Below, in pieces: positions 10,088-31,248 of a DNA stretch of 64,000 bases; position 1 is the first letter of the stretch; each line of letters begins with the position of its first letter. The stretch is from Crocinitomicaceae bacterium. Lineage in GTDB: Bacteria; Bacteroidota; Bacteroidia; Flavobacteriales_D; Crocinitomicaceae. Location: positions 62,001 through 126,000 of the forward strand of contig JAQWYK010000018.1 in the NCBI GenBank assembly GCA_029254025.1, written 5' to 3'. The position numbers and the translations under genes are program-made. A model generated the notes under the pieces. That model ran no database searches and was not told where the DNA came from. It saw nothing but the letters and a program-made list of their open reading frames with translations.

Positions 10088-12403
10088 ATGAAAAAACAAT
10101 TACTCTTCGCAGCTATGCTGCTCGCTTCTGTCGGAAGTGCGTTTGCTCAAACCTTTGATATGGGAGAACCACTATCTTGGAAAGGTAAATTTCCAACAAC
10201 TAAACAATTTCATCAGATGCCTGCTGTTGACGCAGCCTACCAGATGCATGTTGACTCCCTGAACAGAGTGAATGGATTTGACAAAATGTTACGGTTTGGA
10301 TATGAACACCATGTTAACATTAATATACTCGATGAGGGAGTAGCTTTTACAACACCAAAAGGTGATCGAGTAGTACAGTATGCAATATCCTGTCCAAATG
10401 CGGTGTCGGTAAACCTGATTTTTGACGTATTCGAATTAGCCGAAGGAACTACTCTTCATCTATTCGACAAGGATCACCTTCAATACATCGGGGCGCACAC
10501 TTCCAAAAACAACAATGAAAACAGAATGCTTGGAACAGAGTTGATCAAAAGTGACAACATGATTATTGAAATCGTGGAGCCCCAAGCTGTTATTGGTCAA
10601 TCTCAATTGGTATTAGGTACAATAGTTCATGGATACAGAGACCTTGAAGTCATGGCAAAAGCGCTCAATGACTCTGGAGATTGTAACATCGACGTGAACT
10701 GTCCTCAAGGAGCTGGATGGGAATTACAACGGAATTCAGTAGCCATGATGGTTTCTGGAGGTGGGTTCTGCACTGGAAGCTTGGTGCACAATACATCAGG
10801 TACAATTATTCCTTATTTCATCTCTGCGAACCACTGTGGTACAAACCCAGGTGGATGGACCTTCCGTTTTCGTTGGGAAACACCTACTAACGGCGTAAGC
10901 TGTGCTACAACGGCAAACTCTGTAAACGGCCCAACCAACATGAATGTAAACGGTGGAGTCCTTCGTGCTGCCAATTCAAATGCTGACTTCACGTTAACAG
11001 AATTGAATACAGCTCCTAACCCAGCATGGGGGATTTACTACAATGGATGGGATGCCACAGATGCAACAACGAACACCCGAGCCACGGGTATTCATCATCC
11101 AAGTGGGGATATTAAGAAAATTTGCCACTCCGAAATGGCACCAACGAAACAAACAACAAATTTTAACGGAAATCCTAATGCTCAAATGTGGCGCGTTGCT
11201 TCGTGGACAGAAGGGGTTACAGAGCCTGGATCATCAGGATCCCCACTTTTCAATCAAGATGGCCGTGTAATTGGTGTATTATCTGGCGGTGCTGCGGCTT
11301 GTAGTGGAACTTCCAACAATGGCCAATATGACATCTACGGGCGTTTCGGAATTGCTTGGGACGCACTCGCTCCGAGCAACAGTCAACTAAAATTTTGGTT
11401 AGATCCAGGAAACACGGGTAATGAAATTATTGACGGTGTAGATCCAAATCAAGCTTCAGTTCAATATGATGCGAGCATTGGAAACCTACAAAATGCAACA
11501 GGTATCATCTGTGGTGATGGTACACAGCCAGTCGCACGTATTACTAATTCAGGTTCTGAAACATTAATTTCTGCAACAATTGTCTACTCCTATAACGGAA
11601 CGAATACGGCATTAAACTGGACTGGAAGCTTAGCAACGAACCAATTTGAAGATATTCAACTTCCTTGGATGTTTGCAGTAGATGGAAATAATACGGTTTC
11701 TGTGACAGTAAGCAATCCAAATGGTCAATTAGATGAAAATGCAGCAAACAATGTTATCGCGTCAACATATATCGCCGTAATCGAAGGAGAATTTGTTACT
11801 CTAGATCTTACATTGGACTGCTACGCTGAAGAAATTTCATGGAGCATTGAAGATGCCGCTGGTCTATCATGGTATTCTGGGGGAGGATATGCGAATCCTA
11901 ACCCTTTGAATCAGACAACGCTAATTTCAGAATCTATGTGTCTTGCTGATGGTTGTTACGACCTCATACTGAATGATTCTTATGGAGATGGTATGGGGGG
12001 AGCTCAGTGGGCGCCAGACTGTGAGTTTGACGGAACTATGCAGTTATCTAGGAATACAAATGGACAGGTATTAGCTGAACTAACAGCTACAGATGCTGAC
12101 TTCGGAAGTACAATTTCGTTTAATTTCTGTGCACAGAACTTGGCGAACTTAGCCTATGAGACAATGGTGAACAACATTAGTCTTTATCCTAACCCATCGA
12201 AAGGAGCTTTCACTATTCAAATTCCTGGAGTTGAAGGGGAAAAAGTCATTACCTTACTCGATGTAACCGGAAAAGTAATTGGTTCACAAACGACTTCTTC
12301 TGACGTTGTTGAGTTTAACGAAAGTTCATTAAAATCAGGTGTCTACCTTGCTTCTATTCGAACTCTTTTAGGTACGGTAACACGTAAGTTCATCGTAGAA
12401 TAA
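10088..12403 (+). CDS. T9SS-exported trypsin-like serine endopeptidase (lysyl endopeptidase-like)
   Basis: From the ATG at 10088 this is a 771-residue preproprotein; a longer frame from 9941 lies inside the redoxin gene and masks the signal peptide. Order: signal peptide 1-20; propeptide-like region to about 195; chymotrypsin-fold protease at about 200-460 with H249 in FISANHCG, D300 in NSNADFTL and S383 in EPGSSGSPLF as the inferred triad; a beta-sandwich region at about 470-590; a region to about 690 with a calcium-binding-like NDSYGDGMGG; and a C-terminal T9SS type A sorting domain (SLYPNPSKGAF ... SGVYLASI ... KFIVE). C228/C250 probably form a disulfide next to the catalytic histidine. 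The protein should be secreted across the outer membrane, with the tail removed by the sortase. It is followed by a strong terminator. Confidence 0.9.
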   Translation: MKKQLLFAAMLLASVGSAFAQTFDMGEPLSWKGKFPTTKQFHQMPAVDAAYQMHVDSLNRVNGFDKMLRFGYEHHVNINILDEGVAFTTPKGDRVVQYAISCPNAVSVNLIFDVFELAEGTTLHLFDKDHLQYIGAHTSKNNNENRMLGTELIKSDNMIIEIVEPQAVIGQSQLVLGTIVHGYRDLEVMAKALNDSGDCNIDVNCPQGAGWELQRNSVAMMVSGGGFCTGSLVHNTSGTIIPYFISANHCGTNPGGWTFRFRWETPTNGVSCATTANSVNGPTNMNVNGGVLRAANSNADFTLTELNTAPNPAWGIYYNGWDATDATTNTRATGIHHPSGDIKKICHSEMAPTKQTTNFNGNPNAQMWRVASWTEGVTEPGSSGSPLFNQDGRVIGVLSGGAAACSGTSNNGQYDIYGRFGIAWDALAPSNSQLKFWLDPGNTGNEIIDGVDPNQASVQYDASIGNLQNATGIICGDGTQPVARITNSGSETLISATIVYSYNGTNTALNWTGSLATNQFEDIQLPWMFAVDGNNTVSVTVSNPNGQLDENAANNVIASTYIAVIEGEFVTLDLTLDCYAEEISWSIEDAAGLSWYSGGGYANPNPLNQTTLISESMCLADGCYDLILNDSYGDGMGGAQWAPDCEFDGTMQLSRNTNGQVLAELTATDADFGSTISFNFCAQNLANLAYETMVNNISLYPNPSKGAFTIQIPGVEGEKVITLLDVTGKVIGSQTTSSDVVEFNESSLKSGVYLASIRTLLGTVTRKFIVE

Positions 12404-12778: not shown

Positions 12779-14596
12779 TCACTCCGTAGACGGTAAAACT
12801 ACGGTGAAAATTGTTTTCTCAGCACTTGATGAAAACTCCATTTTACCGTAATGATCAATAATGATCTTTGACACAATACTAAGTCCTAGACCAGTTCCAT
12901 TGTCTTTTTTAGTTGTAAAATACTTTTTGAATATTTTGTCTTTTACTGCAGTAGGTATCTCAGGGCCATTATTCTCAAAATGAATATAAATTTTTCCTTC
13001 AATTTCTTCACTGTAAATGGCTATTTTTTTCTGTCTAGTTTGATTTTTTACCGTATCCAATGCATCCAATGCATTTTTTAATAAATTGGACCATACTTGA
13101 TAGATTTCAGTTTCTATTCCGTAAATTGAGTGAGATGAATTTATATCAACAGAAAAGATTAAATTATCTTTAAATCGAAATTTAAATAGCGTTTCTAAAA
13201 TACTCATTGACTTACGGAGATTAATCTTTTGTTTATCGTCATCAATATTTTGCTTTATAAACTTATTTAGATTGGAAATTACTGAAGTAGATTGTGTGAC
13301 AGCCTGATTTATTCCACTAATTAATTCCATTGCAACCAGGTAATCCCCAACTAATGGAATTAATTTGCCAACATTAGGCAAATCTAACAATTGATAAATA
13401 ATTTCTTTTTGCGCTACACCCATGCCTATTGAGGCTATATCTTTCGCCAGAGGAATATATTGTTCTAATCGCTGTTCACTCAGAGCTTCCTCAATTTTCT
13501 TTGTCTCATAATTTACCCAAGAATTACGTGGAAATGGGTTTACTCGTTCCGTTAAATTCAAAATTTCAGAAAGGACAACAGAGACTTCTTTGGTTAAATA
13601 TTGCGATTGAGCATTTATTTGAAATAATAATTCTCTAACACTATCGTTGGACGCTTTAATAGATCCGAGTGGAGTGTTTAAATCATGGGCTATACCTGAT
13701 GAAATCTCACCAAGCAGCACAAGCTTTTCCTGACCAATTAATGAATTGGACATCTCTAAGTTGGATTTTGTCTTATCGAGCACTTTCTTCTCGAGATCTT
13801 CATTCAAACGAATCAGTTCACTATTTTTATTTTTAATCTCACCCGAAATTTGATCAATTTTTTCTTCAAGACGATTTTTATATTCATTGTTTTCCTTCTG
13901 CAAATTTTGTAATTTATTCTTGAGCGAAAAAAGTGCATTGTTAAGTTCATCTAACTCAGTTTTACCGGAAACTAAGGTGATATCTACGGAATAATTCTGA
14001 TTCTCTAATTCTTGAGCGATACTAACAGCGCGATAAATGGGTTTAGTCAAAAACCTTAATGATAATGCAAACAAAATAATAGTTGCTATAATGGAAACAA
14101 CGATCAAATATCTGAAAGGTGCATTAAGATTAGACAAGATAATTTCATCATTTGAAGCAGAGGTGGTTATAATTATACGACCAGAAATTAATTCTGAATT
14201 AAATTGGGATTCACTGTAGATTAAAGAATCTGACCTTTCCAATGCAATAGGAAAAAAGAAGTCTGGATAACAAGCAAATACCGCAGAAGAATCTGTTCCC
14301 TCATTCGTAGCATTCAAATCCTCGACAATAGCAATATATTCAAATCCACTTTTCATGGATATAGTAGAAACCAAATACTCAACGAGTGCAAAATCTTCAT
14401 TAATGATGGCTTGTTGAATAACTGCGGAAGCAACCCAAGCGCTATTTTCAAACTCCTCTCTTGTATGATCTTGAAGTAAACTGCGTTGTTCAGAATTGAA
14501 GTAGTAACCTAAGGGAATAGAAATTAGTAGCCCGATAAATCCAAAAAGAATCCAAACCTTAAACGCCGCAGAGTTCCAAATTCTATTCCTTTTCAA
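12779..14596 (-). CDS. Two-TM sensor histidine kinase of the porin/binding-protein operon
   Basis: A 605-residue kinase: TM1 at about 12-32, an extracytoplasmic sensor segment at 33-160, TM2 at about 163-181, a HAMP-like linker to about 235, a long coiled coil at 220-292, H304 in SGIAHDLNTPLGSIKAS as phospho-acceptor, and an ATPase domain with N-box SNLLKNALDAL (503-513), ENNGPEIP and GTGLGLS (567-573). About 130 mostly helical residues (315-445) separate the H-box from the ATPase domain, far more than the usual dimerisation hairpin. The 5' end overlaps the PstS-like gene by 14 bases, so the kinase is coupled to it. The likely logic is that the periplasmic protein reports ligand to the kinase, which signals to the receiver at the head of the operon (inference). 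Confidence 0.88.
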   Translation of the reverse strand: MKRNRIWNSAAFKVWILFGFIGLLISIPLGYYFNSEQRSLLQDHTREEFENSAWVASAVIQQAIINEDFALVEYLVSTISMKSGFEYIAIVEDLNATNEGTDSSAVFACYPDFFFPIALERSDSLIYSESQFNSELISGRIIITTSASNDEIILSNLNAPFRYLIVVSIIATIILFALSLRFLTKPIYRAVSIAQELENQNYSVDITLVSGKTELDELNNALFSLKNKLQNLQKENNEYKNRLEEKIDQISGEIKNKNSELIRLNEDLEKKVLDKTKSNLEMSNSLIGQEKLVLLGEISSGIAHDLNTPLGSIKASNDSVRELLFQINAQSQYLTKEVSVVLSEILNLTERVNPFPRNSWVNYETKKIEEALSEQRLEQYIPLAKDIASIGMGVAQKEIIYQLLDLPNVGKLIPLVGDYLVAMELISGINQAVTQSTSVISNLNKFIKQNIDDDKQKINLRKSMSILETLFKFRFKDNLIFSVDINSSHSIYGIETEIYQVWSNLLKNALDALDTVKNQTRQKKIAIYSEEIEGKIYIHFENNGPEIPTAVKDKIFKKYFTTKKDNGTGLGLSIVSKIIIDHYGKMEFSSSAEKTIFTVVLPSTE

Positions 14597-15029
14597 AACT
14601 ATTTATTTGAATCGTGGTAATATTCTGTGATCCTGTATAATCATACAAAATAGCAATTGAACTAGGATTTTCTCGAACAAAATCAATCATCATCTGGTTC
14701 GAATTAAAATAAATTGGTGGGTTTGCTCTTCCTTGAAATACAATACTCAACCAATACCGCCGGAATGAGTTTAACGAAGATCCTGAAATAAGACGGGCGA
14801 CCTCTTCTGCACCCTGAAAATCAGTTGTGGGAAGTACGACAACTATGGTATTATTACTTGGATCAACCTGTTTCTCCCCTAAAAAAATATCCTTTAATTC
14901 ACTTAAACTCATGGCGTTCATTGTTATTGAATTCCCGATTACCGTAAATTTTTCTGAACTTGATTGTGAAATTCCTGATATGGAAACAAACAAAATTACA
15001 ATCATCAAAAGAAAACTTCTAGATAGCAT
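14583..15029 (-). CDS. Small PstS-like periplasmic substrate-binding protein
   Basis: From the ATG at 15029 it has 148 residues: signal peptide MLSRSFLLMIVILFVSISGISQ, then a single-lobe domain. Family marks are the LSELKDIFLGEK segment near 42-53, NNTIVVVLPTTDF, a FRRYWLSIVFQGRANPP segment near 94-110, and the late YDYTG. These occur in short phosphate-ABC-transporter-binding-like proteins that are only half the length of PstS (about 320) and usually lack ABC transporter partners; none is present here. The longer frame from 15104 extends far into the barrel gene, so the inner start is preferred; even so it overlaps that gene by 11 bases and the kinase gene by 14. The ligand is unknown; phosphate should not be assumed. 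Confidence 0.8.
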   Translation of the reverse strand: MLSRSFLLMIVILFVSISGISQSSSEKFTVIGNSITMNAMSLSELKDIFLGEKQVDPSNNTIVVVLPTTDFQGAEEVARLISGSSLNSFRRYWLSIVFQGRANPPIYFNSNQMMIDFVRENPSSIAILYDYTGSQNITTIQINSFEKE

Positions 15030-16089
15030 AAGATAATTGCATTTTAAGTTCATACTTTTCTTGCAACTTTGGAATATTATCGAATCCTTCGAATAACCCA
15101 CCATATCTTTCGAACTGCACTTTTAAATTCAATTTATCGCTAAATTCCCAACGAAATCCTAAAGAATATTTCAATGCATTCGTTCGTTGAGTATGGAGTT
15201 CTTTATCAGAAGTAATTAATGCATCAAGCATTACATATGGGATGTATTTCTCTTTAATCCTATAACCAGCGTAAATATAGTTGGTATAATTGATGGATAG
15301 ACCCAATGAATCTGTCCTTGATCCAATGATTGCAAATTCATTTAATAATTCAAACTTGGTTTGAAAACGGGCAACTGAAACATAAAATTGATTCAACGAA
15401 ACTGCTCCTTTGTACATATGATTGTGAAAGGGTCCTGAATGGGCATGTGGACCATTTGTATTAGTGGGAAGAAAATCATTATTAAATCCAGCCATGATTC
15501 GTGTTCCGAATTTCGGTTTAATATGAACAGATGCATTGTAGGAGAAATTAAATCCACTACTCGAAATATCTGAACTTTCCATTCCGTTGGCAACTTGAAA
15601 ATCATAACCAAATTTATATTTTCCAATGTCTTGTCCTTGCAGACGTATTCCTAATGAGTGAATGGGTACGAAAAAACTAAAATTTAAAGGCCGATCAATT
15701 GTTGGAAAGAAAATTCTTCCATGGTGAAAAACATCATTCCAATAATTTAGTGCTGTATGCATTTTTCCAACAAGTAAATAATGTTTCTTGTGATAGTTGT
15801 ACCGTATACGAGCACGCTCGATACTTGCGAGAAAACCGGATGATGACGAGGCACTTCCTTTAAACACAAATTCACCCAAAAAAGAAACCTTATCTGATAA
15901 TTTCCCTGTAACAAACAAGTCATGCTCACCTAAAGTAAAACTTCCGAAATCATCTTGACCTGTTGAATCATTTGGGTAAAAATTATTTTCATACCCCAAG
16001 TGTCCAAAACCATTTACTTGTATCTGGCGCTGAGCGATTAGCGTTGAAAAACTAATAATAGAAATAGAAACAAATAAATAAACTTTCAT
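15019..16089 (-). CDS. Outer-membrane porin-like beta-barrel protein
   Basis: From the ATG at 16089 it has 356 residues with signal peptide MKVYLFVSISIISFSTLIAQ. The rest alternates short amphipathic strands, with a porin-like sequence early on (GEHDLFVTGKLSDKVSFLGEFVF, then ERARIRYNY and LLVGKMHTALNYW), and ends in the aromatic/hydrophobic LKMQLSYAI, which fits an outer-membrane barrel. One predicted loop is histidine-rich (GPHAHSGPFHNHMY at about 222-235). Its ATG overlaps the receiver stop codon (ATGA) and its 3' end overlaps the PstS-like gene. A plausible role is to admit, or hold at the surface, the ligand seen by the downstream binding protein and kinase. An upstream start at 16155 would lie inside the receiver gene and hide the signal peptide. 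Confidence 0.8.
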   Translation of the reverse strand: MKVYLFVSISIISFSTLIAQRQIQVNGFGHLGYENNFYPNDSTGQDDFGSFTLGEHDLFVTGKLSDKVSFLGEFVFKGSASSSSGFLASIERARIRYNYHKKHYLLVGKMHTALNYWNDVFHHGRIFFPTIDRPLNFSFFVPIHSLGIRLQGQDIGKYKFGYDFQVANGMESSDISSSGFNFSYNASVHIKPKFGTRIMAGFNNDFLPTNTNGPHAHSGPFHNHMYKGAVSLNQFYVSVARFQTKFELLNEFAIIGSRTDSLGLSINYTNYIYAGYRIKEKYIPYVMLDALITSDKELHTQRTNALKYSLGFRWEFSDKLNLKVQFERYGGLFEGFDNIPKLQEKYELKMQLSYAI

Positions 16090-16499
16090 AAACTTAATTT
16101 TGCTGGAATAGGGAGACAATGATTGATTTTTTCTAATAAATCCAATTTTTCCCAAGGTTTACTAATGTAATATTCCAAAAGGTTATCCTCAACTAAATCT
16201 GAGACTAGTGACGCCGAGGAATTTCCTGAGAGCATGATGCACCTACAAGCCGGAAAATGTTGTTTTAAGGTGCGAATAAATTGATCGCCTTGCATTTTCG
16301 GCATTTGAAAATCGACAAGGCAAAAGCTTATATCAATGTTATCTCGAGCATAATTCTTGAGTTCATGCATGGCCTCCAAAGGATCATCAAAACTCTCGAC
16401 AACATGCACGCCTTTGTTCGCAACGGAATTGATCTGGAATTTTGCAACAGTGTTAATTATGTTGTCATCATCAATACAAAAAATCCCATATTTCTTCAT
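16086..16499 (-). CDS. Stand-alone response regulator receiver
   Basis: A 137-residue single receiver domain without an output domain. The acidic pocket is D10-D11-D12 in FCIDDDNII, the phospho-acceptor is D63 in CLVDFQMPKMQG, S91 replaces the usual threonine in IMLSGNS, and K114 in YISKPW is the conserved lysine. The KPW form is common in RpfG/Rcp-like receivers. With no DNA-binding or enzymatic domain it must act by protein contact, as CheY or a phosphorelay intermediate does. It is the first gene of the four-gene operon and presumably accepts phosphate from the kinase encoded at its end. A promoter-like pair of boxes lies just upstream (16519-16547), giving a leader of only about 14 bases. 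Confidence 0.9.
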   Translation of the reverse strand: MKKYGIFCIDDDNIINTVAKFQINSVANKGVHVVESFDDPLEAMHELKNYARDNIDISFCLVDFQMPKMQGDQFIRTLKQHFPACRCIMLSGNSSASLVSDLVEDNLLEYYISKPWEKLDLLEKINHCLPIPAKLSL

Positions 16500-16518: not shown

Positions 16519-16547
16519 CAAATATAAAAAAATAACGATAACCACAA
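16519..16547 (-). promoter_or_regulatory. Promoter of the receiver-barrel-binding protein-kinase operon
   Basis: On the minus strand a TTG at 16547-16545 is followed after 18 bases by TATATTTG at 16526-16519, matching the Bacteroidota -33/-7 pattern. The first ATG of the operon is 20 bases downstream of the -7 box. Confidence 0.6.
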
Positions 16548-16757: not shown

Positions 16758-18560
16758 TTATTTAATTTGATTAAAATATGCGAAGAGTAACTCTGCTTTA
16801 GAACGTCCAACTACTGACTCAATTTCTTTAAAAGTAGCATTCTTTATGGATTTAAAAGTCTTAAAATGGAGCATCAATTCCTCCTCTGTTTTCGGACCAA
16901 TTCCTTTTACTTGAGATAACTCAGAAACAAAAGCTGACTTGCTACGCTTATTTCGATGGTGCCTTATCCCAAAGCGATGGGCCTCATTGCGCATGTACTG
17001 AATAACCTTCAAGCTTTCACTCTTTTTATCTAAATAAATTGGCAAACTGTCTCCCGGAAAAAATATTTCTTCAAGTCGCTTCGCAATTCCAATAATGGGT
17101 ATTTTACCATACAAACCTAATGATCGCAGTGCATCGATCCCTGCGCTGAGCTGACCTTTCCCTCCATCAACAATTAACAATTGGGGCAAGTCTCCCCCAC
17201 CTTCAAGCATACGTTTATATCTTCTATAAATTGCTTCCCTCATTGAGGCGAAATCATCCGGACCCTCCACGGTTTTAATGTTGAAATGGCGATAATCCTT
17301 TTTACTCGGCTTTCCATTTTTGAAAACAACACAGGCAGAAACTGCATTCGTTCCTTGAAAATTAGAATTGTCGAAACACTCCATGTGAATCGGTAATTCT
17401 TGTAAACGAAAATCCTTTCGAATTTTCTGTAATATCCGTTCAGTATGCACCTCCGGATTTTTTAAACGCTCTTGCTTGTGTTTTTCGAGTTTATAAAATT
17501 TTGCATTTCTTTTGGACAAATCCAATAAATGTTTCTTATCTCCCCGTTGAGGAGCAAAAAAGTGGACGCCATCCATTTCAAGTTCATCCAAACTTTCAAC
17601 AAGCACTTCTTTAGATTGACTATCAAATTGAAGACGCATCTCTGTTAGAACAAATGCAATTATTTCAGATCGAGATTCCGACAACTTCTTCTTGACCTCC
17701 ACAGTATGGCCATGAATAATTGCTCCGTTACTAATTTTTAGGTAATTTACAAAAGCTCGATTTTCGTCGTCCTCCAATGTAATCACCTCTACTTCGTGAA
17801 TAGTTGGAGAAACTACTGTTGACTTCGCTCGATACTTCTCCAGTGTTGTAATCTTGTTCTTAATTAATTCAGCTTCTTCAAATTCGTAATTTTGAGCTGC
17901 CAACTGCATGCGTTCTTTCAGCAGGCGAAGCACTGAAGCAATATTCCCCTTTACAATATGTTCAATCTGTGTAATGTATTCATCATAGTTTGCTTTTGCT
18001 TCCGCACCTACACAAGGCCCTTTGCAATTTCCAATGTGGTATTCCAAACATACTTTAAACCTTCCTTCTCTTATTTTGGTAGGCTGTAGGTCCAACGAGC
18101 ACGTCCTCAATGGAAATAAATCCTTCATTAGCTCCAATAAAGTGTTCACAACCTTAACAGAAGGGTACGGACCGAAATATTTAGATCCATCACGAACGAC
18201 TTTTCGTGTGGTAAAAACACGCGAAAAAGGTTCATTCTTAATACAAATCCAGGGGTATGTTTTATCGTCCTTTAGCTGAATATTATAACGGGGCTTATAT
18301 TTTTTGATTAGGCTATTTTCGAGTAACAATGCATCTGTCTCCGTATCCACAACGATGTAGTGAATATCCACAATTTTGCGCACCAAAACACGTGTTTTCG
18401 CGATATCATGATGCTTTGTAAAATAGGAGGCAACCCGTTTCTTAAGGTTCTTTGCTTTTCCCACATAAATAATGGTGCCCCCTTTGTCAAAATATTGATA
18501 GACCCCTGGTTTTTCAGGAAGAGATTTTAGTTTTTCCGACAGTGGGTTATTGTTCTCCAT
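16758..18560 (-). CDS. uvrC: UvrABC excinuclease subunit C
   Basis: A 600-residue nucleotide-excision-repair nuclease. Order: GIY-YIG endonuclease (PGVYQYF...IIYVGKAKNLKKRV, about 16-45) for the 3' incision; the cysteine-bearing segment with CLEYHIGNCKGPC near 168-180; a UVR motif near 200-240 (RMQLAAQNYEFEEAELIKNKI) for UvrB contact; an RNase H-like endonuclease (CFDNSNFQGTNAV, VDGGKGQL) for the 5' incision; and a C-terminal helix-hairpin-helix (VKGIGPKTEEELMLHF). The length is normal. A start at 18593 adds 11 residues, but a TAACTTTG box sits at 18576-18569, between the two ATGs, so transcripts from it would carry only the inner ATG at 18560. It is divergent from sucA. Confidence 0.96.
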   Translation of the reverse strand: MENNNPLSEKLKSLPEKPGVYQYFDKGGTIIYVGKAKNLKKRVASYFTKHHDIAKTRVLVRKIVDIHYIVVDTETDALLLENSLIKKYKPRYNIQLKDDKTYPWICIKNEPFSRVFTTRKVVRDGSKYFGPYPSVKVVNTLLELMKDLFPLRTCSLDLQPTKIREGRFKVCLEYHIGNCKGPCVGAEAKANYDEYITQIEHIVKGNIASVLRLLKERMQLAAQNYEFEEAELIKNKITTLEKYRAKSTVVSPTIHEVEVITLEDDENRAFVNYLKISNGAIIHGHTVEVKKKLSESRSEIIAFVLTEMRLQFDSQSKEVLVESLDELEMDGVHFFAPQRGDKKHLLDLSKRNAKFYKLEKHKQERLKNPEVHTERILQKIRKDFRLQELPIHMECFDNSNFQGTNAVSACVVFKNGKPSKKDYRHFNIKTVEGPDDFASMREAIYRRYKRMLEGGGDLPQLLIVDGGKGQLSAGIDALRSLGLYGKIPIIGIAKRLEEIFFPGDSLPIYLDKKSESLKVIQYMRNEAHRFGIRHHRNKRSKSAFVSELSQVKGIGPKTEEELMLHFKTFKSIKNATFKEIESVVGRSKAELLFAYFNQIK

Positions 18561-18568
18561 CTTATTCA

Positions 18569-18576
18569 CAAAGTTA
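18569..18576 (-). promoter_or_regulatory. Probable -7 box for uvrC
   Basis: TAACTTTG on the minus strand fits TAnnTTTG and lies 8 bases upstream of the ATG at 18560, implying a very short leader. The -33 element is poor. The box helps decide the start of uvrC. Confidence 0.4.
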
Positions 18577-18724
18577 ACCAAACATTTATTCAATCCGAAG
18601 TTGTGAAAAGATTAAACAAAAGTCTTCTTCAAATGCAAAATGTGGCAATATTTTTATCGGCTACGAATCTGAAAAGTCAACAAAAATTAAATCCTTTTTT
18701 TACGAAGTAACTCATAGAAAATTG

Positions 18725-29505: not shown

Positions 29506-29871
29506 TTATAAGAACTCATCAAATAATTCAATAATCTTTTCCTTCCGCAGTGGTTTTTGAACAACACACTTGAACTCGTCTACATCTTCGAGAACAGACT
29601 CAGGAACTGAAGAAACATCTCCTGTAACAAATACGATAGGGGTTGAATACACAGCGAGTCCCTTCTTTGCGAGTTCTACTCCACTCATTGAAATACCGAG
29701 CTGAACATCCATTAAAACTAAGTCAATCATTTTCGAAGCTAATTGATTCATATAATCATCATAATCAGAAACAATGACTGTGCGATATTCCCCAAGAGAT
29801 TGAATTTGTTTTGAATGTAGAAAACCGATTATTTCCTCATCCTCAACTAATAATATATTTTTTAATGCCAC
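29506..29871 (-). CDS. Stand-alone response regulator receiver next to a SpoIIE phosphatase
   Basis: A 121-residue single receiver domain. It has the acidic pocket in LLVEDEE (residues 7-13), phospho-acceptor D55 in LVLMDVQLG, threonine in FVTGD, and the conserved lysine in CVVQKPLRKEK near 109. No output domain is present. It follows the SpoIIE-type phosphatase gene by 18 bases and is probably made from the same transcript, so phosphorylation of this protein may control the phosphatase, or the phosphatase may act on its partners (inference). No histidine kinase is adjacent. Confidence 0.88.
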   Translation of the reverse strand: MALKNILLVEDEEIIGFLHSKQIQSLGEYRTVIVSDYDDYMNQLASKMIDLVLMDVQLGISMSGVELAKKGLAVYSTPIVFVTGDVSSVPESVLEDVDEFKCVVQKPLRKEKIIELFDEFL

Positions 29872-29889
29872 TTTTTTTATTTTTTAAGT

Positions 29890-31248
29890 TTATTGCATGC
29901 GTATTCCGGCAACGATTATGTCATCTGTTTGCTCGTTTTCGCCTTTCCAATCATAAATCATATTGGACAAATTTGTTTTTTGAGCATCACACGAAAGAGA
30001 TCCATTTGAAGACAAAAATCGTTTAAATCTACTCTTCATTAATTTCTTCTGTTTCGGGCCTCCGAATTGATCAATTACTCCATCCGAATACATATAAATC
30101 ATATCCTCAGAACTCAAATGTAGATATGTTGAATTTATATTTAATTTTTCTAAAGCGTTTCCCAAAAACAATTTATCACCTTTAATCTCTTGTATATTTT
30201 CAAATTGATCTTCTTTTTTTAGAATATAAACCGTTGAATTTACTGCACTAACTTCAACCGTTTTTTCACGTTTATTAAAAATACAAATGGAGCAATCTAA
30301 ACTATCCTTAACGGACTGTTGAGCGTAATTTGAACCAAAGTTCTTAAAAAGGCCATCGTTTAGTTTTTGTAATACTAATTCTGTATTTATATTTTCATCA
30401 TCAGTAGTTATTTGATTCAAAAGTGTAATCGAAATCATGGTTAAAAATCCTCCCGGGATACCATGACCTGTGCAATCACCAACCAACAATACAAATCTGT
30501 CTTCACCTAATGTCTTACACCAGAAAAAATCTCCCCCAACCTTATCTTTAGGCTTATAAAACAGGAAATAATCTGCTTGCTCATTTAAAGAATCAATAGA
30601 ATCTAATAAAAGATTATATTGTATTAATCTGGCATAGTCAACACTTTCTTTGAGTTCTCTTGTACTCTCTATGGCTCGAACTTCTGAAATTTTCGCGTTT
30701 TTGATTTCAGCTTCTAAATTCTGTTTAAACCCCTTTTCATCAAGGTTGATTTTAATATAAAATAGAATTATCCACACAAACAGATAAGCTCCATTGATAA
30801 CATCAAACATTCGAGAAAGCTCCTTAGGGTAAGGGCTTCCCAAATTAAAAACTCCCAGCCATTTTATTAGAAATACTATTAACGTTGCTCCTAAAAAGAG
30901 AAATGAATATAACGTTGAATGTTGTTCATTTTTAGAAAAGAATAGAACAGGGAAAACACAAATAAAAATTACTCCTAAAAAACTAAAGCTATTTTGAAAA
31001 AGCAATGCAACAACAACAATTGATAAACTAATTGAAGCAAAAATGAGATTAGAAAGTACTTCGTTCTTCTTTATTTGCTTTATAAATTGTAGAAAGAATA
31101 CACTCAACGAAAGTAAAGGGAAAATTGAAATAATTATTTGTTTATAGAGGTCTGAATTCAGAAAATAACTGAAAACCCAAATCATCGTAGTAGCTATTGC
31201 TGCAATAGTTTTAAAAACTGAATAATTTAGATGTAATTTGTTTTGCAA
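29890..31248 (-). CDS. Membrane PP2C-type (SpoIIE) serine/threonine phosphatase
   Basis: A 452-residue protein with about six TM helices (roughly 12-30, 38-57, 66-84, 90-104, 112-130, 152-167), a charged helical linker at about 168-215, and a cytoplasmic SpoIIE-type phosphatase domain at about 225-450. Metal-binding motifs are visible: VGGDFFW (237-243), VGDCTGHGIPGG (256-267) and MYSDGVIDQFGG (386-397). Members of the family dephosphorylate anti-sigma-factor antagonists or similar STAS proteins; no such gene is in the window. The membrane part probably senses something, though it resembles no sensor I recognise. The promoter region carries two inverted repeats. Confidence 0.88.
   Translation of the reverse strand: MQNKLHLNYSVFKTIAAIATTMIWVFSYFLNSDLYKQIIISIFPLLSLSVFFLQFIKQIKKNEVLSNLIFASISLSIVVVALLFQNSFSFLGVIFICVFPVLFFSKNEQHSTLYSFLFLGATLIVFLIKWLGVFNLGSPYPKELSRMFDVINGAYLFVWIILFYIKINLDEKGFKQNLEAEIKNAKISEVRAIESTRELKESVDYARLIQYNLLLDSIDSLNEQADYFLFYKPKDKVGGDFFWCKTLGEDRFVLLVGDCTGHGIPGGFLTMISITLLNQITTDDENINTELVLQKLNDGLFKNFGSNYAQQSVKDSLDCSICIFNKREKTVEVSAVNSTVYILKKEDQFENIQEIKGDKLFLGNALEKLNINSTYLHLSSEDMIYMYSDGVIDQFGGPKQKKLMKSRFKRFLSSNGSLSCDAQKTNLSNMIYDWKGENEQTDDIIVAGIRMQ

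Follow-up and report, generated by a model that had tools for sequence, protein, structure and literature searches.

A candidate trans-envelope sensory relay built from a porin-like barrel, a single-lobe PstS homologue and a sensor kinase in a Crocinitomicaceae genome

We analyzed a 64,000-nucleotide stretch of the genome of a Crocinitomicaceae bacterium (hereafter the window), which carries on its minus strand a quartet of genes coding for a receiver, an outer-membrane barrel, a PstS-like protein (PBP) and a sensor histidine kinase. The coordinates of these leftward genes and their overlaps of 4, 11 and 14 bases agree with an earlier note on this DNA, as does its statement that the operon includes no ABC transporter, none being found among the four genes. 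The single promoter that it proposed was borne out in part. A Bacteroidota-type promoter-like site, TTG-N18-TATATTTG, is present on the minus strand at 16519..16547 (TTG at 16547-16545, TATATTTG at 16526-16519, spacer of 18) and ends 19 bases upstream of the start codon of the receiver gene, but this motif, which we take to be the Bacteroidota promoter consensus, is no more frequent than expected by chance (10 sites in the window on both strands versus about 4.3 expected per strand). A sigma-70 scan was also at chance level (19 sites versus a mean of 25.4 in shuffles). The layout of the quartet is identical in a relative of the same genus (L012), and the same gene order, with intergenic gaps of about zero or slightly negative, was observed at L013 and L014.

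The receiver gene (16086..16499, minus strand) encodes a stand-alone protein of 137 residues (Response_reg, 2.5e-16 in Pfam), for which Pfam shows no second domain. Its CheY-like residue set is complete, comprising the D10/D11 acidic pair, the phospho-acceptor D63, the serine of MLSGN and K114 in a KPW motif; D10, D11, D63, K114 and P115 are invariant across eight aligned receivers. A motility output of chemotaxis type, as envisaged in the earlier note, was judged unlikely in the source genome because CheW has no match there at E≤0.001, the control search being positive in 7 of 14 genomes. Nor does the lone receiver belong to a conserved core: the quartet that includes it occurs in only 4 of 149 related genomes, the source genome counted, and other cassettes have other outputs (receiver-cyclase, receiver-HisKA_2, MCP or SpoIIE). 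Co-conservation holds for part of the quartet, the full set being rare and the barrel-PBP pair with a membrane sensor being common.

The kinase gene (12779..14596, minus strand) starts with TTG and codes for 605 residues with a weak HAMP domain and two transmembrane helices predicted at 11-29 and 152-170. Histidine kinases carry an H box, an N box, a G1 box, usually DxGxG, and a G2 box. Here H304 (in AHDLNTP) and N508 are conserved and GTGLGL is present; the G1 box reads NNGPE, without the usual Asp, and autokinase activity is thus not assured. In Pfam, HATPase_c scores 65.6 bits, above its cut-off, and HisKA 23.1, below its cut-off of 26.9, the HisKA match ending at residue 329 and HATPase beginning at 495. 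An insertion of about 110 residues in the dimerization/phosphotransfer region (13277..13609, minus strand, limits set by eye on the alignment) is common to L013, L014, L067 and L082. The periplasmic sensor domain (14144..14509, minus strand; pLDDT 80.7) is predicted to be PAS/Cache-like and belongs to a family common to MCP- and SpoIIE-type cassette sensors. WalK and a LapD-type periplasmic domain, both of which sense other proteins, are among its fold matches (Z 11). Comparable scores were reached by a citrate sensor (9mrh, Z 10.3) and by Mlp24, a chemoreceptor for amino acids (10.2), so the domain may also bind small molecules directly. A search of PDB sequences with the sensor-domain profile gave CitA as the best match (E 0.05).

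The barrel gene (15019..16089, minus strand, 356 residues) codes for a divergent Porin_O_P-like outer-membrane beta-barrel. Its Pfam match to Porin_O_P/DUF3187 is sub-threshold (17.5 bits for Porin_O_P, against a curated cut-off of 20.9), and 6 of 44 family barrels match Porin_O_P at E≤0.01. Profile comparison makes the assignment firmer, as the family profile finds Porin O in the PDB (4rjx, 1.2e-5) and group profiles match the cassette barrels to one another and to gammaproteobacterial porins at 97.9-99.6%. The envelope locations assigned in the earlier note are thus supported by profile comparison for the barrel and by predicted helices for the kinase, the signal peptides having been judged by eye only. 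Residues H111, H123 and H144 of the barrel are nearly invariant in 13 aligned rows, and may hint at a ligand.

The remaining gene (14583..15029, minus strand) encodes a predicted secreted protein of 148 residues. As a single sequence it matched no Pfam family at E≤1 and nothing in NCBIfam, a phmmer search of the PDB returned only a de novo protein (E 1.5), and a scan of viral contigs gave no relative. The family profile, on the contrary, matches PstS 1twy at 2.7e-11 and aligns to residues 105-218 of this 290-residue chain. Foldseek with the AlphaFold model of the window protein (pLDDT 88.4) also finds PstS (4exl/1twy), the top ten PstS chains giving TM-scores of 0.52-0.61 by query length and 0.32-0.38 by target length. 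The description of this protein as PstS-like is therefore clear from family profile and fold, and invisible in Pfam for the single protein. SGT, presumably the motif of the PstS phosphate-binding loop, is visible in 1twy in the profile alignment and was found in 0 of 42 PBP rows in the 20 aligned columns around that loop (this set, A2, leaves out L065, L072, L075, L079, L083, L085 and L088, which have uncertain starts or are fragments). Judged by its sequence family and its model, the PBP is one PstS lobe, the second lobe and the SGT loop being absent. With half a PstS and no phosphate loop, it is probably not a phosphate clamshell, and the term binding protein is doubtful in that sense. As to membership of a PstSCAB transporter, the four genes include no transporter gene, and a search of the source genome for PF12849 (PBP_like_2) gave no match at E≤0.001.

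These features bear directly on the idea that the operon senses phosphate or another oxyanion, in which a phosphate-type porin would admit the anion and the small protein would bind it and present it to the kinase, by analogy with PstS-CtpL. The Porin_O_P and Porin O matches of the barrel family are compatible with this idea, as are the matches of 25 of 42 PBPs to PF12849 (PBP_like_2) at E≤0.01 and the binding of Pi-loaded PstS to CtpL described in the available part of a P. aeruginosa study (PMC4926252). However, the window protein taken alone does not match PF12849, and the single lobe and missing loop make a plain phosphate sensor less likely; we consider such a role distinctly unlikely.

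Far from being a one-off, the cassette has relatives across Bacteroidota and Gammaproteobacteria. The PBP profile has matches in at least 31 of 395 Bacteroidota genomes, our genome-search counts being lower bounds with at most 9 or at most 11 candidates scored per genome, depending on the search; L017 (which nearly duplicates L016 within one genome) and L021 (a weak match with stops and no PBP ORF) were dropped before counting. An ORF of 250-460 residues lies immediately upstream on the same strand for 43 of 48 PBP ORFs, the window not counted (the exceptions are L069, L079, L080, L088 and L090, the barrel ORF of L079 being interrupted by a stop and scored as absent). Downstream of the PBP, 33 of 37 genes, the window included, have two transmembrane helices in their first 230 residues, and Pfam domains among 34 of these genes comprise HAMP (24), HATPase (18), MCPsignal (12) and SpoIIE (2). 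Single linkage places 25 of 33 periplasmic domains, including that of the window, in one family, behind which kinase, chemoreceptor and SpoIIE outputs are swapped (L054, L075 and L088 were left out of set A4, and L080 out of the sensor-domain set, A5). No homology among the three sensor-domain groups of the phylum was detected by hhalign. The window's sensor family is found within 6 kb at 21 of 41 PBP places of the phylum, among the matches listed, which counts against the relay favored below.

A similar association was observed in Gammaproteobacteria, where a porin lies within 400 bases of the PBP at 78 of the best 80 of at least 547 loci, which are mostly from Pseudoalteromonas. Within 2.5 kb of the PBP, 48 of these best 80 loci have an MCP, 6 a kinase and 26 neither MCP nor histidine kinase. 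For the MCP sensor domains at these loci, hhalign gave no relation to the main sensor group that includes the window's domain, and their match to f35 is weak (26.6%). Taken together, the barrel and PBP are kept together in both groups and mostly stand beside a transmembrane sensor, which fits a path from barrel to periplasmic reporter to sensor and supports the view of the earlier note that the four genes form a unit. The same data speak to the suggestion that these are chance neighbors or a decayed chemosensory operon with no joint function. Most cassettes lack the lone receiver, the promoter motif is no commoner than chance predicts and the kinase G1 box is degenerate, all of which such decay would accommodate; yet the gene order is retained in relatives at other genomic sites, the barrel-PBP adjacency recurs in Bacteroidota and Gammaproteobacteria in a manner indicating more than vertical inheritance, and the receiver catalytic residues are intact. 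Given the conserved order and adjacency, we judge this explanation very improbable.

A stronger competitor is that the half-PstS works mainly with the porin, which it would gate, plug or help to assemble from the periplasm, that the kinase itself detects a small ligand, and that co-transcription merely keeps uptake and sensing together. Barrel and PBP form the tightest pair in Mantel tests on trees, which were run without species control (n=22; r 0.88 for PBP-barrel, 0.57 for PBP-sensor and 0.48 for barrel-sensor; main-family sensors with a barrel only, L012 dropped as a genus duplicate), as they do in the gammaproteobacterial porin counts. Barrel-PBP pairs without an adjacent sensor exist, e.g. 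L057, L061, L062 and L063, so that barrel and PBP may have an independent function; the sensor families differ between cassettes, and in the fold comparison small-molecule sensors score on a par with the protein-reading ones. Against a mere gate or plug, one sensor family keeps company with the PBP: among the matches listed, the 395 genomes contain 27 strong places of this family, and 22 of them have a PBP within 6 kb. The figure is partly circular, as A5 was trained on sensors beside PBPs and 17 of the 27 places belong to the training rows; of the other 10, 5 are near a PBP. In the 149 relatives the nine full-length strong places comprise eight training rows and the L017 copy; what counts as evidence there is only that no strong sensor-domain place was found away from a PBP. 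Five of the 27 strong places have no nearby PBP among the matches listed; one of them has a full-length binding protein, and the other four have no recognized small partner in Pfam scans covering a minority of neighbors. Our analysis covered the regions of 20 of the 31 sensor places that lack a PBP within 6 kb: 13 showed no recognized partner, again with a minority of neighbors scanned, which favors the gate, and six have a YfiR/HmsC-like neighbor, so that the same sensor family also adjoins another small periplasmic protein, which argues against it, the sensor-domain matches of these six being weaker (E 2e-10 to 1e-5). On balance, we regard a mainly porin-directed role of the half-PstS as unlikely.

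We favor, with a probability of roughly 55%, a trans-envelope sensory relay running from the barrel through the half-PstS adaptor and the PAS/Cache-like sensor to H304 of the kinase and D63 of the lone receiver. The Porin_O_P-like barrel and the soluble single-lobe PstS derivative would constitute a sensing pair, in which the latter would be the conserved adaptor or reporter of the cassette. Depending on the cargo or state of the barrel, the half-PstS may dock on, or leave, the PAS/Cache-like periplasmic domain of the kinase, whose HAMP and dimerization helices would then shift the balance of kinase and phosphatase activity. H304 would thereby control phosphorylation of D63, and the receiver, having no output domain, would act by contact with another protein. 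The contacts, the direction of signaling, the nature of the ligand, the phosphotransfer and the target of the receiver are all put forward here as parts of this model.

Such a relay probably represents an under-recognised route of information from pore to cell interior. Information transfer from the outer membrane to an inner-membrane sensor is known for few systems, such as YfiBNR and FecA-FecR, and the cassette offers a compact, modular test system for it, including in culturable Pseudoalteromonas. Were the relay confirmed, numerous genes annotated as phosphate ABC transporter substrate-binding protein would prove to encode misnamed signaling adaptors, and the porins beside them would be receptors as well as pores. 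A broader and more tentative proposal, which we consider possible though doubtful, is that single-lobe PstS descendants are a general periplasmic adaptor linking a porin receptor to the adjacent sensor, be it a kinase, a chemoreceptor, a phosphatase or possibly a c-di-GMP enzyme, and thus form a porin-to-cytoplasm module in at least Bacteroidota and Proteobacteria, with YfiR-like proteins in the same slot beside TonB receptors at some loci.

No description of the cassette was found among the literature titles and abstract openings listed, most subscription papers being out of reach; the nearest known systems share parts of its design. The arsenite system AioXSR co-encodes, like the window, a periplasmic binding protein (AioX), a sensor kinase (AioS) and a receiver protein (AioR). 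AioX binds As(III) directly and AioR activates aioBA transcription, and the available part of the source mentions no outer-membrane barrel (PMC7533571). AioR is described there as a Sigma54-family transcription regulator, unlike the single-domain receiver of the window. In phosphate chemotaxis of P. aeruginosa, as in our proposal, a PstS-family protein signals by contact with the periplasmic part of CtpL, a receptor in the inner membrane; there PstS is a transporter component that binds phosphate, and no barrel is mentioned in the part of the source available (PMC4926252). YfiBNR of P. aeruginosa resembles the cassette in combining an outer-membrane protein, a small periplasmic protein and an inner-membrane enzyme: according to the accessible parts of two reports, YfiB is a lipoprotein that binds peptidoglycan (PMC4655355) and YfiN is a diguanylate cyclase (PMC4887326). 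YfiR/HmsC-like proteins hold the place of the half-PstS beside related sensors at the six loci mentioned above, whereas the window PBP is not YfiR-like and belongs by profile to the PstS family. Further counterparts are plasmid-borne short proteins annotated as phosphate ABC transporter substrate-binding protein beside a porin (in Pseudoalteromonas, a P. aeruginosa river isolate and others), in which PBP and porin are homologous to those of the cassette and show the same adjacency; any sensor linked to them is an MCP or, in Caballeronia, an EAL protein, in place of the kinase of the window.

Four overlapping minus-strand genes (12779-16499), with overlaps of 4, 11 and 14 bases, are confirmed as described in the earlier note. 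They encode a stand-alone receiver (137 aa), a barrel (356 aa, 15019-16089), a secreted small protein (148 aa, 14583-15029) and a histidine kinase (605 aa), and are flanked by a minus-strand gene that is uvrC-like by eye (16758-18593) and, on the other side, by a plus-strand gene that converges on them and ends at 12403. The promoter-like site is indeed present upstream of the quartet, but its motif occurs in the window at the frequency expected by chance. The receiver retains the full catalytic set (D10, D11, D63, the S of MLSGN and K114), and a Pfam scan revealed no second domain in it. The kinase has two predicted transmembrane helices, a HATPase match, HisKA and HAMP matches under their Pfam cut-offs, and, within the dimerisation region, some 110 inserted residues that alignment also places in the kinases of L013, L014, L067 and L082. 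In its G1 box the kinase carries NNGPE, where the quartet relatives L013 and L014 have NNGPT and NNGPM, so it cannot be assumed to be an active autokinase. The barrel matches Porin_O_P under the Pfam cut-off, and its family profile matches Porin O in the PDB (1.2e-5). A His-rich loop of the barrel, GPHAHSGPFHNH, is partly retained in close relatives and might bind metal.

As a single query, the small protein matched nothing in Pfam, NCBIfam or PDB sequences. PBP_like_2 is matched by 25 of the 42 family members, and the family profile aligns with PstS 1twy only over residues 105-218. Its AlphaFold model is a confident single lobe (pLDDT 88.4) whose ten best PDB fold matches in Foldseek are all PstS chains, with TM-scores of 0.52-0.61 by the length of the small protein and 0.32-0.38 by that of the PstS chain. 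The SGT of the PstS phosphate loop is found in none of the 42 aligned rows. By sequence profile and predicted fold, the protein is half a PstS, and it is very probably not a phosphate clamshell.

Half-PstS matches were found in 10 of 149 related genomes, the window's own included; the weakest (in G012) carries stops, as does the copy in G102. A profile search of the phylum, assumed to be Bacteroidota on the strength of gene content and the earlier note, in which at most nine candidates were scored per genome so that counts are lower bounds, yielded at least 41 places in at least 31 of 395 genomes. Among 48 half-PstS ORFs from both genome sets, window excluded, 43 have an ORF of 250-460 aa directly upstream on the same strand and 36 an ORF of 300 aa or more close downstream. 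Barrels in three groups match one another and the gammaproteobacterial porin profile at 97.9-99.6%, and the third genes scanned (n=34, window included) encode HAMP (24), HATPase (18), MCPsignal (12) and SpoIIE (2) domains. A search for co-conservation of the whole quartet, proposed in the earlier note, recovered quartets with a lone receiver in four of the 149 genomes: the window's own, L013, L014 and L012, where the contig stops within the kinase. Several loci vary this arrangement. In L059 (5636-11101) two tandem barrel–half-PstS pairs precede a single gene that matches the L055 chemoreceptor in its N-terminal region. Flanking a barrel–half-PstS–kinase triad in L015 (1592-12466) are a multi-PAS kinase, an H-NOX (haem-NO-binding) protein and receivers whose outputs are LytTR, SpoIIE and AraC; L016-L018 resemble it by eye. 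L016 and L017, which lie on separate contigs of genome G124, are near-identical copies of this H-NOX-type cassette region, from either a duplication or an assembly artefact. In L018 (7000-9364) the kinase has a second, partial sensor-domain copy behind the first, and the half-PstS has two TAA stops in the homologous stretch, with an open ORF devoid of signal peptide.

Outputs also differ. L085 reproduces the window order except that its receiver carries an output domain (receiver-cyclase, barrel, half-PstS, kinase); this receiver shows a weak likeness to the window's (1.9e-4), with KPI instead of KPW, and the sensor domain of the L085 kinase belongs to another group. A receiver-cyclase lies downstream in L073 and a receiver-HisKA_2 in L067, whose receiver aligns with the one adjacent in L082. 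The window genome has 22 receiver matches and two class III cyclase matches, one of the latter in a frame of 581 aa, and a frame of equal length a few hundred bases off contains a receiver match; a profile search of this genome gave no CheW match. Elsewhere in the window (29506-31248, leftward), an output-less receiver (121 aa) adjoins a SpoIIE-type phosphatase (452 aa) with several hydrophobic stretches by eye, a further signalling pair without DNA-binding domain.

Beyond the phylum, tblastn with a relative as query returned 19 plasmid records, ten of whose neighbourhoods were examined, two of them unannotated. The short protein lies beside an annotated porin in L092, L093 and L096 and beside a porin-sized ORF in L091, L094, L095 and L099; the linked sensor is an MCP in L093, L096 and L099 and an EAL protein in L095, and no sensor is adjacent in L091, L092 and L094. 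In L100 no porin adjoins the short protein, and an MCP lies about 760 bases off on the opposite strand. On the Alteromonas plasmid L091 (5932-12336), the short protein and porin-sized ORF adjoin type IV CRISPR csf genes. In a genome-collection scan, 78 of the best 80 of 547 gammaproteobacterial loci match the porin profile no more than 400 bases away; within 2.5 kb, 48 of these 80 have an MCP, 6 a kinase and 26 neither, and the sensor domains of 48 MCPs show no relation to the window's family. Barrel and half-PstS are thus the constant core, beside which sensors are exchanged.

The observed gene order, families, conservation and output swapping favour, with a probability of roughly 0.55, a relay whose contacts, direction, ligand and phosphotransfer are all proposed here: cargo or state of the barrel would be conveyed by the half-PstS to the PAS/Cache-like domain of the kinase, which would set the phosphorylation of a stand-alone receiver acting through contact. 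By single linkage, 25 of 33 periplasmic domains, that of the window among them, belong to one family covering kinases, chemoreceptors and SpoIIE phosphatases; the other eight fall in groups of 5 and 3. The window domain is modelled as PAS/Cache-like (pLDDT 80.7). No Foldseek match reached 1e-3, the top one (E 1.3e-3) being 4u64, a periplasmic domain of LapD type. VIA-align scores (WalK 11.1, 4u64 11.0, citrate sensor 10.3, Mlp24 10.2, CitA 9.8) are tied among the first four, so the fold cannot separate a protein-reading from a ligand-reading domain.

Across the 395 genomes this domain occurs in at least 53 places, and 22 of the 27 at E<=1e-13 lie within 6 kb of a half-PstS; cassette sensors served to train the model, 17 of these 27 places are training rows, and five of the ten outside training are near a half-PstS. 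In the 149 relatives, all nine full-length strong places adjoin half-PstS genes, as does a tenth, partial place in the same gene as one of the nine; eight of the nine being training rows, what carries information here is the absence of strong places away from a half-PstS. One weak place (4.4e-4, G080) has no half-PstS match. Regions were read for 20 of the 31 places without nearby half-PstS in the phylum. In six, where the sensor scores E 2e-10 to 1e-5, a YfiR/HmsC-like protein of 175-190 aa is the neighbour, all six matching PF13689 at E<=0.01 and five over the Pfam cut-off. These loci (L106, L107, L110, L118, L119 and L120) combine the related sensor and YfiR/HmsC-like protein with an ORF of 650-890 aa, the three scanned being TonB receptors (L106, L110) or bearing a TonB plug domain (L119), and make up a parallel cassette within this phylum. 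At L105, a strong place, a full periplasmic binding protein lies about 50 bases off. Different small periplasmic proteins can thus fill the sensor slot, which is indirect evidence, weaker than we first judged, that the domain reads a protein. The small partner is often not visible: none was recognised in 13 of the 20 regions, four of the five strong places among them, in neighbours taken without a Pfam scan. These 13 sensors and the fold's tie with small-molecule sensors lower the odds of the relay and speak for another reading, which we consider rather improbable, that the half-PstS serves the porin as periplasmic gate, plug or assembly partner and the kinase senses a small ligand directly.

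Tree distances in 22 cassettes of the main sensor family correlate at 0.88 for half-PstS and barrel, 0.57 for half-PstS and sensor and 0.48 for barrel and sensor (each p 2e-4, 5000 permutations), values that, lacking a species-tree control, indicate co-inheritance rather than contact. More tentatively than the relay itself, the single-lobe PstS could be a general periplasmic adaptor from porin to whichever sensor adjoins. The literature searched, mostly titles and the starts of abstracts, held no description of a cassette of porin, short PstS and sensor. What appears undescribed in that literature is the combination with porin and half-PstS, and its breadth; each part is known already, as is the idea that a sensor takes its signal from a periplasmic protein. 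PstS docking on CtpL (PMC4926252), AioX feeding AioS (PMC7533571) and the YfiB-YfiR-YfiN relay (PMC4887326) are precedents for the relay proposed in the window.
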